This document shows positions 19,578 to 50,819 of a stretch of 64,000 bases of DNA, piece by piece. The translations under genes were made by a program, and so were the position numbers. Within the stretch, counting starts at the first letter, position 1; every line of letters begins with the position of its first letter. Origin of the DNA: Deltaproteobacteria bacterium (lineage in GTDB: Bacteria > Desulfobacterota > GWC2-55-46); NCBI GenBank assembly GCA_016177845.1, contig JACOUO010000001.1, positions 62,001-126,000 on the forward strand, read 5' to 3'. Below the pieces are notes generated by a model, which had not been told where the DNA came from, made no database searches, and saw nothing but the letters and a program-made list of their open reading frames with translations.

Positions 19578-20690
19578 TTAAAAACGCTGTTCGTCCCTGT
19601 GCTCGTCGAATAGCCTTCTGAACTCTTCCGAGCATGCAATGAATGAACGGTATATGGCCGGGTCAAAGCGGTTTTTCAGGCCCTCTATTATCAGGCAGGC
19701 TTTCTTGTGCTCGAATGATGGCTTGTAGGGCCGTTTGCTTCTCAGGGCATCATAGATATCTACAATATTTACTATCCTGCCTGAGATGGGTATCTCTTCG
19801 CCTTTCAGGCCTTTCGGATAACCTTCTCCGTTCCATGTTTCGTGATGCGTAAGCGCTATTTCCTGAGCCGTATTGAGTATCTCGGAATCTGAATTCCTCA
19901 GGATGTCAGCTCCTATTATGGTATGGGTCCTCATTATTTCGGACTCTTCTTTCGTGTGCTCTCCCTCTTTAAGGAGGATGGAGTCCGGTATGCCGATCTT
20001 TCCTACATCGTGCATCGGGCTTGCGAAGAAGATAGCTTCGACCATTTGCTCGCTAAGCCCTAAATGCCTTGCCATGAGCTGTGAATAAAGGCTGATCCTC
20101 TTTATGTGCCCGCCTGTTTCTTTATCTCTGTACTCTGCGGCAAGCGTAAGCCTGTAGACTGTCTCTATATACCCGTACCTTATCTTCTCGAACGCTTTCT
20201 CAAGCTGTGCGCTTTTGCTTATTACCTCGCCCTCGAGCATCTTGCCGTGGTCAATGAGGTAGTCTTCGTATTTCTTTACCTTCAGGATGTTTTTTACCCT
20301 TACCCTGAACTCAGCTTCATCAATGGGCTTGGATAGGAGCTCGTCTGCCCCGTGGTCAAGGCCTTTTACCTTTGAGCCTCTGTCTGATAAGGATGTGACT
20401 ATAAGGACGGGGATGTGCATGGTGGAGGGGTCTTCCTTGAGCCTTTTGGTTATCTGGAAGCCGTCCATGCCCGGCATTACAACATCGACTATCAGAAGGT
20501 CAGGGTGATAGCTCCGTACCTTCTCAAGGGCTTCAAGCCCGTTGTCTACGGCAAGGCTCTCATGCCCAAGCTCGGTGATGAGGTCTGTGATGATGCTCCT
20601 GTAGAACTTGTCATCATCGGCCACGATGATACGCGCCTTCTTGTCATGGCCGAAAGGAGGCACCAGTAATTGTATTATCTTTTCCTCCAT
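19578..20690 (-). CDS. Response regulator with HD-GYP domain (c-di-GMP phosphodiesterase, RpfG type)
   Basis: 370 residues. The receiver domain (about 20-140) has the acidic pocket VADDD and phospho-acceptor Asp69 in DLLIVDVVMPG. A linker helix precedes the HD-GYP domain (about 165-360), with MHDVGKIGIPDSIL (HD metal ligands) and the GYP loop HHETWNGEGYPKGLKG. It should hydrolyse c-di-GMP when phosphorylated. No partner kinase is adjacent. A candidate c-di-GMP effector (PilZ) is encoded at 48726. Confidence 0.95.
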   Translation of the reverse strand: MEEKIIQLLVPPFGHDKKARIIVADDDKFYRSIITDLITELGHESLAVDNGLEALEKVRSYHPDLLIVDVVMPGMDGFQITKRLKEDPSTMHIPVLIVTSLSDRGSKVKGLDHGADELLSKPIDEAEFRVRVKNILKVKKYEDYLIDHGKMLEGEVISKSAQLEKAFEKIRYGYIETVYRLTLAAEYRDKETGGHIKRISLYSQLMARHLGLSEQMVEAIFFASPMHDVGKIGIPDSILLKEGEHTKEESEIMRTHTIIGADILRNSDSEILNTAQEIALTHHETWNGEGYPKGLKGEEIPISGRIVNIVDIYDALRSKRPYKPSFEHKKACLIIEGLKNRFDPAIYRSFIACSEEFRRLFDEHRDEQRF

Positions 20691-34141: not shown

Positions 34142-34204
34142 ATTATTTCCTGCTTGACATTGTAAACATAAAATGTAAAGATACGAACCACAATTGAATA
34201 ATAT

Positions 34205-34386
34205 CAGGGTATCCCCTTTCAATGGGGGATTTAAAAGGGAATCCCGTGCTCGGCAAATTTGCTGAAAATCGGGAACGGACCCGCCACTGTAAACGGGGAC
34301 GAAATCCGCTGTACATGCCACTGGCTTTTAGCCGGGAAGGCTGCGGAGAGTAGAACGAACCGTAAGTCAGGAGACCTGCCCGGGAT
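34205..34386 (+). ncRNA. Adenosylcobalamin (B12) riboswitch
   Basis: The conserved blocks appear in order: AGGGAATCCCGTG, CGGGAACGGACCCGCCACTGTAA, GCCACTGG, CCGGGAAGGC and AAGTCAGGAGACCTGCC (the B12 box region). An upstream TTGACA at 34154-34159 with a weak A-rich -10 is the probable promoter. A terminator at 34456-34493 follows, so coenzyme B12 binding should stop transcription of the 14-kb cobalamin operon. The expression platform between 34386 and 34456 has another inverted repeat (CCTCAC...GTGAGG). Confidence 0.95.
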
Positions 34387-34455
34387 ATGCCTCACGAGTT
34401 CTTCGATGGTAAAGAAGGTGAGGGATTTGGATATTTCTACTTTGCGGACTTCCAG

Positions 34456-48529: not shown

Positions 48530-48668
48530 GATAGTCAATATAACCTGTTGATTTCTGAAGTTTTTTCTGAATTTAGGTTGAAATTCCCGGATTTTGGAAT
48601 TAATATGCTTAGCACCTGCTATAGCATAGTATATAGTATTCGGCTTTTTTGAATATGCATAGCGAGCG

Positions 48669-48696
48669 CATTCCCCGCGGCTTGCCGTGGGGTGCT
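48669..48696. repeat. GC-rich palindrome CCCCGCGG-CTTG-CCGTGGGG
   Basis: An 8-bp inverted repeat (48673-48680 with 48685-48692, one G-T pair) has a CTTG loop. It lies about 30 bp before the HTH-PilZ gene, in an otherwise AT-rich 260-bp gap. It could be a dispersed palindrome or an operator. Confidence 0.45.
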
Positions 48697-48725
48697 TCAA
48701 ACTGTTTTGTTAAGAAGAGGGGGCG

Positions 48726-49214
48726 ATGGTCTCATCGGATATTAAGCGCATACGGCTTTCCCTTGGCTGGTCGCAGGAAACCCTTGCCAGAAAACTCGGC
48801 GTAAGTTTCTGCACAGTGAACAGATGGGAGAACGGCAGGACCAAACCGAGCCCTTTAGCGCAAAAGATTTTATCGGAACTTAAACAGAACGCGGGCCTCA
48901 CAGTGGACAGGAGCGCGAAGAGATATCAACTGCGCTTTCCTATTACCGTTAAAATGGCCGGAGCAAAAGGCGGCGTGAAGCCGCTTTGCGCATTTACTGA
49001 AAATGTGAGTATGGGAGGGCTTATGTTCAAGACCTCTCAGTTCATAAGCGAAGGCGATTCTCTCTTTATAGACCTAAGCCTTTCAGGCAAGCCCATCAGG
49101 GCTGAAAGCGAGGTCGTGTGGGCATTAGGTGATCAAGCTGAGAGAAGCATCGGGGTGAGCTTTAAAAAAATAAACTTAAAAGATTTGGCTGCCATGAGAG
49201 CAATGCTGAATTGA
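48726..49214 (+). CDS. HTH-PilZ fusion protein, candidate c-di-GMP-responsive regulator
   Basis: 162 residues. The N-terminal 52 are an XRE-like helix-turn-helix (IRLSLGWSQETLARKLGVSF, CTVNRWENGRTKPSPLA). The C-terminal 100 are a PilZ domain with both c-di-GMP motifs: RYQLR (RxxxR) and ENVSMGGLMF (NxSxxG). So the protein could bind DNA and c-di-GMP. It is followed 29 nt later by a PAS histidine kinase. Many HTH domains of this kind bind DNA, but protein contacts are possible. Confidence 0.85.
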   Translation: MVSSDIKRIRLSLGWSQETLARKLGVSFCTVNRWENGRTKPSPLAQKILSELKQNAGLTVDRSAKRYQLRFPITVKMAGAKGGVKPLCAFTENVSMGGLMFKTSQFISEGDSLFIDLSLSGKPIRAESEVVWALGDQAERSIGVSFKKINLKDLAAMRAMLN

Positions 49215-49243
49215 TTTGAAAAATTGAAAAAGGGAATTTTAAA

Positions 49244-50626
49244 ATGGAAAGAGAAGGAAGCCTCAGCATAACTGCGGAAGGTCTTGTAATCAGGTTAGGC
49301 GGCAGCCTTGAGGAAATACTCGGCTATTCAGCTGATGATATTGTCGGGAAAGAGATCTTGATGCTTGCCTCAGAGGACAGCCGGGCAGAGTTGCAGACGC
49401 TGATAAATTCGGTAAAAGTTGCGGAAAGCCCTGTTGTAGCCCAGAAGATAGAGCTTCTGCAGAAAAGCGGAGCCTCTTTGGAGGTCTATGCTTCGATATA
49501 TCCGTTAAGGAACCGCCTGGGCGTGCTCCACTCCATGATGGTGACATTCAACCTCAAGAAGAATACTTCCGTTCCGGCGATCCTTACTGAAGAGTTCCAG
49601 AGGATATTCAGGTTCTCCAATGACGCTGTGGCGATTACAGACAAGGTCGGCTCCATAATCGACGTAAACCAGGCGTTCCTCGATATATACGGTTATAAGC
49701 GGGAAGAGGTATTGGGCAGAAATCCAAGGGTGCTTAAGTCCGAGCACTCCACAAAAGAGCTGTATACGATGATGTGGAAGGATATACTCGACCCTGCCAA
49801 AGGCTACTGGAGGGGCGAGATAATAAACCTTAAAAAGGACAGGACCGAAGTGCCTGTTCTCCTTTCCATAAACGCGATAAAGGATTCAAAAGGCGAGATA
49901 AAGAACTTCCTTGGCATAGCATTTGACATGACACGCCAGAAAGAGCTTGATAAGCTCAATAAGATGTACATCGACTACATAATACATGACATCAGAGGGC
50001 CTCTTACGACCATTATGGTAAATTCCGAGCTCCTGCTTATGCAGCTTGAGGGGACGCTTACGGAGAAGAATAAAAGGAAGTTCGAGGCAATGATAAACTC
50101 TACCCAAAGAATCAACAAGATGACCACTGACATGATTGACTACAGCAGGGCACAGAACAACAGCCTTACGATATTTAAGCAGAAGCTAAGTGTCGGCAGC
50201 GTCTTTAAAGAGGCGGTAGCTCCTTTTGAGAATATGGAGAAGAAGCTTTTTGTGAACGGGGTCATCTACAATGAGTACGCAATGGAAAACAGGGATATCG
50301 AAGCTGATTCGGATAAGCTGACAAGGGTTTTCTATAATCTTCTGAGCAATGCCTTCAAGTATGCCGTTTCAGAGGTCAGGGCTAACCTGGTATTCAAAGA
50401 ATCCCACCTGCACTTCACGATAACCGATGATGGAAAAGGCATTACCGAGACAGAGGCACAGAGGGTATTTGACCCGTTCTACCAGACCGAGGACGGCATC
50501 AAGACAGGCGGCGCAGGGCTTGGCCTTAATATAGTAAAGAGCTTTGTGGAGGTGCACGGAGGTAAGATATGGGTAGAGGCCGGCCAAGGCGGGGCCACCT
50601 TCGGCTTTACGATTCCCTTGGTTTGA
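49244..50626 (+). CDS. PAS-PAS sensor histidine kinase, soluble
   Basis: 460 residues, no membrane helix. A weak PAS (about 5-105) and a clear PAS/PAC (about 115-230, FSNDAVAITDKVGSIIDVNQ and YGYKREEVLGRNPR) precede HisKA with His248 in DYIIHDIRGPL and a HATPase_c domain (FYNLLSNAFKYA, DDGKGI, GGAGLGLNIVKSFVEVHGG). It should autophosphorylate in response to a cytoplasmic signal. No response regulator adjoins. It is probably co-transcribed with the HTH-PilZ gene. Confidence 0.93.
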   Translation: MEREGSLSITAEGLVIRLGGSLEEILGYSADDIVGKEILMLASEDSRAELQTLINSVKVAESPVVAQKIELLQKSGASLEVYASIYPLRNRLGVLHSMMVTFNLKKNTSVPAILTEEFQRIFRFSNDAVAITDKVGSIIDVNQAFLDIYGYKREEVLGRNPRVLKSEHSTKELYTMMWKDILDPAKGYWRGEIINLKKDRTEVPVLLSINAIKDSKGEIKNFLGIAFDMTRQKELDKLNKMYIDYIIHDIRGPLTTIMVNSELLLMQLEGTLTEKNKRKFEAMINSTQRINKMTTDMIDYSRAQNNSLTIFKQKLSVGSVFKEAVAPFENMEKKLFVNGVIYNEYAMENRDIEADSDKLTRVFYNLLSNAFKYAVSEVRANLVFKESHLHFTITDDGKGITETEAQRVFDPFYQTEDGIKTGGAGLGLNIVKSFVEVHGGKIWVEAGQGGATFGFTIPLV

Positions 50627-50689
50627 TATCTTTGCCCGATATTGACTCGATATCGGGATTCGTGTTAAGCTTACTTTGAAAATTTATCA

Positions 50690-50786
50690 GGATCTCCGAG
50701 CCAATCCCCCTAAGGGAAACTATGGGTGATTGGCCGTTTAGGGCCTGGCTGGAAACGGCCAAGCCTCCCAATTGGAAAGGAGATTA
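50690..50786 (+). ncRNA. Moco-type (molybdenum/tungsten cofactor) riboswitch
   Basis: The closing helix ATCTCC (50692-50697) pairs with GGAGAT (50779-50784). Inside, GCCAATC (50700-50706) pairs with GATTGGC (50728-50734), and GGCCTGGC (50742-50749) pairs with GCCAAGCC (50758-50765) with one mismatch. CTCCGAGCC, GGAAAC and GCCTCCCAATT blocks agree with the Moco RNA motif as I recall it. It stands before modABC, a known setting. A terminator follows, and GGAAAGG (50774-50780) can instead pair with CCTTTCC (50796-50802). Confidence 0.82.
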
Positions 50787-50791
50787 AATTG

Positions 50792-50819
50792 CCAACCTTT
50801 CCGTGGTTGGTTTTTTTTT
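50792..50819 (+). terminator. Riboswitch terminator upstream of modA
   Basis: CCAACC (50792-50797) pairs with GGTTGG (50805-50810) around a 7-nt loop, followed by nine T's (50811-50819). It lies 18 nt before the modA ATG. Confidence 0.88.

Follow-up and report, generated by a model that had tools for sequence, protein, structure and literature searches.

The window (the whole 64,000-nucleotide stretch of DNA analysed here) encodes a protein which joins an XRE-type helix-turn-helix (HTH) domain to a PilZ domain. We propose that it is a one-component, c-di-GMP-responsive transcription factor which would bind a dyad in its own promoter, the simplest output being autorepression of an operon made of its gene (the HTH-PilZ gene) and a histidine kinase gene. 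We put the probability of this reading at roughly two in three. A one-component c-di-GMP transcription factor had already been proposed from the sequence alone. That proposal is strengthened by the conservation of both ligand motifs across about 40% identity, by a predicted structure with XRE helices and a PilZ barrel, and by the presence of a palindrome in the gene's own promoter, inside 48530-48725, which the sequence-only reading had put forward as a DNA target. The two genes are:

48726..49214, + strand: XRE-PilZ protein, 162 aa (open reading frame, both Pfam domains, homologues and structural model)
49244..50626, + strand: soluble histidine kinase of 460 aa (PAS-PAS-HisKA-HATPase_c), encoded second in the predicted operon

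The XRE-PilZ protein and its family

The following domains and motifs were located in the protein:

48741..48854, + strand: HTH_3 (XRE) DNA-binding domain, residues 6-43 (Pfam PF01381, E 3.5e-12)
48909..49208, + strand: PilZ domain, residues 62-161 (Pfam PF07238, E 9.4e-12)
48909..48923, + strand: RxxxR c-di-GMP motif, R62-S-A-K-R66 (among the 21 homologues, R66 never varies and R62 is kept in 90% or more)
49002..49019, + strand: NxSxxG c-di-GMP motif, N93-V-S95-M-G-G98 (among the 21 homologues, G98 never varies and S95 is kept in 90% or more)

Within only 162 aa, each domain scores about twice its Pfam cut-off (HTH_3 46.6 bits against 23; PilZ 45.6 bits against a gathering cut-off of 22.5). 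This agrees with the sequence-only reading, which had described an XRE-type domain together with a PilZ domain carrying intact RxxxR and NxSxxG. The register R62-SAK-R66, situated in the linker ahead of the PilZ barrel, is the RxxxR kept in relatives, while an overlapping second RxxxR, R66-YQL-R70, is not conserved in them.

When the 63 genomes of the class were searched, 17 of them yielded full-length homologues, 21 in all, which share 36-45% identity with the window protein. Five of them are paralogues of a single genome (G333), and a match in G220 which covers the HTH part alone was left out of the count. As both domains exceed their gathering scores in each of the 21 homologues, the fusion can be regarded, on this comparison, as real and neither a chance product nor an assembly artefact. 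Across 297 sampled genomes of the phylum, the protein was matched over its full length only within the same order; outside it, matches were to the HTH half alone or to the PilZ half alone. Plasmid and viral collections gave a match to the HTH part only and no full-length XRE-PilZ. Since such homology searches reach close relatives only, HTH-PilZ fusions of independent origin may occur elsewhere.

The five paralogues of G333 (L117, L124, L126, L127) represent a local expansion of the family. Two of them share a contig, with about 1.2 kb between them, one lacks the Ser of NxSxxG, and none adjoins the kinase gene. As for other PilZ domains, the source genome contains 15 PilZ domains in total, of which, besides that of the window protein, at least four share an open frame with a receiver (REC-PilZ; genome G000, C5:81359, C3:192595, C10:143746 and C23:218120).

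The AlphaFold2 model, for which the window protein and eight homologues served as input, has a mean pLDDT of 86. It comprises helices at residues 3-13, 17-24, 28-35 and 43-55, followed by a six-strand barrel and a C-terminal helix. The four XRE helices are predicted with high confidence (mean pLDDT of 89-96 in the residue blocks from 1 to 50), and pLDDT drops below 50 only at residues 59-63, i.e. in the linker with the first motif arginine. With a pTM of 0.57, the placement of the two domains relative to each other is unreliable in the model. Foldseek matched the PilZ part to PilZ domains, including c-di-GMP complexes (4xrn, Alg44, MapZ, MrkH), and the N-terminal part, with weaker scores, to HigA2 and the P22 C2 repressor. 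Both the PF01381 profile and the fold place the N-terminal part among XRE/Cro-CI HTH domains.

The promoter dyad and its alternatives

Two elements were predicted upstream of the HTH-PilZ gene:

48617..48626, no strand assigned: TGCTATAGCA, a candidate operator with the consensus TGYTATARCA, located in the spacer of the promoter and conserved upstream of HTH-PilZ genes
48609..48637, + strand: predicted sigma-70-type promoter of the HTH-PilZ gene, TTAGCA-17 bp-TATAGT (consensus scan)

The 10-bp dyad TGYTATARCA, common to the promoters of HTH-PilZ genes, was first spotted by eye and tested afterwards. The de novo search covered every 10-bp dyad having no more than one two-fold position and used one upstream region per genus. 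TGYTATARCA was the top pattern, present in seven of ten genera, against a maximum of four (and mostly one or two) for the best pattern in each of 2000 dinucleotide-preserving shuffle sets. All nine exact copies found in HTH-PilZ loci (287 kb) were located just upstream of the HTH-PilZ gene, and no exact dyad was found in kinase loci lacking this gene (127 kb). When the near-exact forms CGCTATAGCA, CGCTATAGCG and TGCTATAGCT were included, the site was present at 11 of 13 kinase-linked HTH-PilZ genes, the two others belonging to one genus. No site was detected upstream of the five G333 paralogues, in genus g207 (L118, L125) or in L115, little upstream sequence being available for L118 and one of the G333 paralogues. 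The source genome (3.0 Mb) contained two exact dyads against 16 copies of the reversed control pattern; one is the HTH-PilZ promoter site, the only intergenic copy, and the other is placed inside an integrase gene. Comparison of these sequences shows that the dyad marks the own promoter of the HTH-PilZ gene and is restricted to this gene. A palindromic operator in the own promoter, here predicted computationally, is also a feature of XRE/Cro-CI regulators.

The predicted promoter matches the consensus at 9 of 12 positions, and such matches alone are near chance level. The same dyad-in-spacer geometry was observed in L116 and L042, with promoters matching at 11 of 12 positions, and in L119 and L121 the dyad directly follows the predicted -10 (promoter read by eye). 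From the placement of the dyad within the -35/-10 spacer or just after the -10, autorepression would be the simplest output, and the autoregulator is probably a repressor.

It might be argued instead that the dyad forms part of the promoter or is bound by a different regulator, the XRE-PilZ protein acting elsewhere or through protein contacts. Indeed, the dyad resembles an extended -10 element (TGnTATAAT), and in G320 and G325 some of its copies are found at plausible promoters. However, it is almost unique in the source genome, its position relative to the -10 varies, and it is gone from the gap between deoB and the kinase gene wherever HTH-PilZ is missing. The latter two features make the extended -10 reading less likely, and the explanation as a whole seems improbable to us. 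Another possibility is that the PilZ domain has lost c-di-GMP sensing and serves dimerisation or protein contacts only. Some PilZ domains bind no ligand, for example PilZ itself, in which residues of the DxSxxG motif are missing (PMC12564702), and S95 is replaced by Gly in L125 and L127, though in these two only among the 21 homologues. Both motifs are nevertheless intact in the window protein and conserved in the family, R66 and G98 without exception, and a loss of sensing would be most improbable.

The conserved self-site might also be one of many sites of a wider c-di-GMP regulon, the others being too degenerate for exact matching. Exact dyads were listed in 30 family genomes and 40 such regions were read. 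The highest counts were found in G320 (eight) and G325 (seven), several of these dyads being intergenic, and genes downstream of them encode a FecR-domain repeat protein and a TPR lipoprotein (G320 and G325) and a GGDEF protein (G325). On the other hand, the source genome has a single intergenic exact dyad, and the lipoprotein and GGDEF sites are absent from other orthologues; the TPR lipoprotein gene was the sole recurrent extra gene with a dyad. Most dyad copies lie inside genes in genomes without HTH-PilZ, and about half are intergenic in genomes with it. Across the 30 family genomes, the only conserved target found by this sequence comparison is the HTH-PilZ gene's own promoter, and we consider a wider regulon unlikely.

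Several minor observations were made on the dyad and its surroundings. In G325, dyad-like copies TGCTATAGTT and TGCTATAGCA occur upstream of the GGDEF-domain gene (L149, 2018-2053 and 2286-3830) and are not kept in orthologues. The encoded GAF-GGDEF protein carries a GGEEF motif, and the dyads at this gene would mean direct feedback on c-di-GMP in G325. The two dyads of L154 and L156, situated ahead of Fic/Doc-like genes, have the appearance of an unrelated operator. Throughout the 30 family genomes, TGYTATARCA is strongly rarer genome-wide than the reversed control pattern; as this also applies to genomes without HTH-PilZ, base composition or other selection must contribute to its under-representation. 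In the window, a second short palindrome, TGCTTAGCA (48606-48614), is separated from TGCTATAGCA by two bases on its upstream side and overlaps the predicted -35, so that it could serve as an accessory half-operator. An 8-bp G+C-rich hairpin, CCCCGCGG-CTTG-CCGTGGGG (48673-48692), lies in the predicted 5' leader of the HTH-PilZ gene and has no match in Rfam. A leader riboswitch was also considered and rejected, as Rfam finds no c-di-GMP riboswitch within the window.

Proposed autoregulation model and known c-di-GMP regulators

According to the proposed model of autoregulation, the protein would contact TGYTATARCA in its own promoter through the XRE domain, in all likelihood as a dimer, and the PilZ domain would bind c-di-GMP via R62xxxR66 and N93xSxxG98. 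Because the motif arginines lie in the inter-domain linker, binding of the ligand should shift the orientation of XRE relative to PilZ and hence alter the affinity for DNA. The HTH-PilZ-kinase operon would be autorepressed, with its level set by c-di-GMP, and the kinase produced would signal to a receiver encoded elsewhere. Against this model speak the likeness of the dyad to an extended -10 element, the lack of a site at the paralogues and loci named above (G333, g207, L115), the uncertain domain arrangement (pTM 0.57, linker pLDDT below 50) and the frequent presence of the kinase without HTH-PilZ.

Among known systems, MrkH of Klebsiella pneumoniae is similar in being a one-component c-di-GMP transcription factor with a PilZ sensor, and MrkH chains 5kgo, 5ejl and 5kec were among the Foldseek matches. 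MrkH, an activator of fimbrial genes, lacks an HTH, its N-terminal part being described as LytTR-like or as a novel DNA-binding domain (PMC3161979; PMC12564702). Unlike MrkH, with its non-HTH N-terminus, the window protein carries an XRE HTH of canonical type, and its promoter a candidate self-site. CuxR of Sinorhizobium, an AraC-type HTH regulator, reads c-di-GMP with a PilZ-like, RxxxR-like motif, and differs from an XRE-PilZ protein by its AraC architecture and cupin-like ligand domain. BldD of Streptomyces belongs, like the window protein, to the XRE-type HTH class and responds to c-di-GMP, which it binds via a non-PilZ domain with the signature RxD-x8-RxxD. This pattern is absent from the window protein, in which PilZ is the putative ligand site. 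In BldD, c-di-GMP drives dimer formation (PMC4151990). YcgR, MotI and MapZ likewise have RxxxR in a linker ahead of the PilZ barrel (Foldseek matches 5vx6, 5y6f, 5y4r), but they bind proteins (flagellar motor parts, CheR1) and not DNA. Finally, XRE antitoxins and phage repressors (HigA2, HipB, 434, P22 C2) have the XRE fold and autoregulation via a palindrome in their own promoter, for which there is a candidate here; they have no PilZ domain, and no toxin or phage gene adjoins the HTH-PilZ gene of the window.

No studied HTH-PilZ or XRE-PilZ factor was found in the open-access literature searched, and other work may exist. The list of c-di-GMP transcription factors in a review of 2025 is limited, and MrkH is named there as the one which joins PilZ to a DNA-binding part, other than a canonical HTH (PMC12564702). 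It is conceivable, at a little below even odds, that the family constitutes an unstudied class of XRE-PilZ regulators, found only in one bacterial class in the collections searched, in which c-di-GMP gates the transcription of a sensor kinase via a single dedicated operator. If so, the second messenger would decide whether the cell makes that sensor kinase at all, and setting the kinase supply would be a possible route for c-di-GMP control of two-component signalling. Such a fusion with its predicted operator would be about the simplest possible c-di-GMP transcription switch, and the predicted 10-bp site offers a ready binding target.

The kinase, its neighbourhood and the HD-GYP regulator

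Two further features of the window concern the kinase:

50682..50798, + strand: Moco riboswitch between the operon and modABC, a boundary and not a member (RF01055, 76.7 bits)
19578..20690, - strand: REC-HD-GYP regulator, proposed third partner (Response_reg and HD_5; putative member)

The kinase gene starts 29 bp after the HTH-PilZ gene. Its product contains two PAS stretches, HisKA (244-305) and HATPase_c (355-459), and 26 orthologues share its H-, N- and G-box residues. No membrane segment was found (maximum 19-residue Kyte-Doolittle mean of 0.96) and no receiver domain is encoded within 5 kb of the gene pair, as expected from the sequence-only reading of a soluble PAS-PAS kinase without a response-regulator neighbour. 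Only 4 of 44 HisKA kinases in the source genome, this one included, have no receiver within 3 kb.

The conserved gene order is cbiG-cobJ-deoB-HTHPilZ-kinase-modABC-czcD. HTH-PilZ adjoins the kinase gene in 13 of 17 genomes, usually with a gap of 5-60 bp (121 and 271 bp in two of them), and where both are present they are probably co-transcribed. In 14 genomes the kinase was detected and HTH-PilZ was not. A visible deoB-kinase junction shows the HTH-PilZ gene to be missing there in 11 of these; in L129, L139 and L140 the contig end is too close to judge its absence. Conversely, four genomes had HTH-PilZ but not the kinase. On the kinase tree, the presence of HTH-PilZ requires at least four changes on well-supported branches. 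Since the kinase persists in at least 11 genomes that lack HTH-PilZ, and HTH-PilZ in four that lack the kinase, neither needs the other: judged by gene content and order, the two are a conserved gene pair, not obligate partners.

The HD-GYP regulator had been noted earlier for having no kinase of its own, and no HisKA kinase was indeed found near 19578-20690. It had been suggested that all three proteins form one circuit, in which the kinase would phosphorylate the HD-GYP receiver, c-di-GMP would change and HTH-PilZ would reset the operon in a feedback loop. That both the kinase and the HD-GYP regulator are without a nearby partner is in favour of such a circuit, as is their co-occurrence: HD-GYP orthologues (counted at 57% identity or more, fragments included) were present in 25 of 27 kinase-positive against 9 of 36 kinase-negative genomes of the class, a comparison confounded by ancestry, and within the family in 21 of 23 against 3 of 7 (p 0.016), which follows taxonomy. 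In several genomes the two genes are also 20-45 kb apart on one contig. However, they are not clustered; they are about 100 kb apart in G263 and G173 and on separate contigs in others. The source genome has 43 receivers without a HisKA kinase within 3 kb (HisKA kinases only being counted), and the presence of HTH-PilZ within the family is not associated with that of HD-GYP (p 0.36). What stood of the suggestion is the pairing of HTH-PilZ with the kinase; the three-protein circuit is unsupported as stated, given that each member of this pair is kept without the other and that the HD-GYP co-occurrence is confounded by ancestry. We treat it as a guess, and quite an improbable one.

Downstream of the kinase gene, the Moco (molybdenum/tungsten) riboswitch was also present between kinase and modABC in 9 of 11 related loci scanned. 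Its position indicates that the mod operon is controlled separately. Between the kinase and mod genes of several genomes lacking HTH-PilZ there is a small gene for a ModE-like winged-HTH protein (L132, 6355-6717; L135, L137, L138, L140), a hint that the kinase may have its place in molybdate physiology. Elsewhere in the window, a cobalamin riboswitch (RF00174, 118.7 bits, 34190-34397) lies ahead of cobalamin-synthesis genes.
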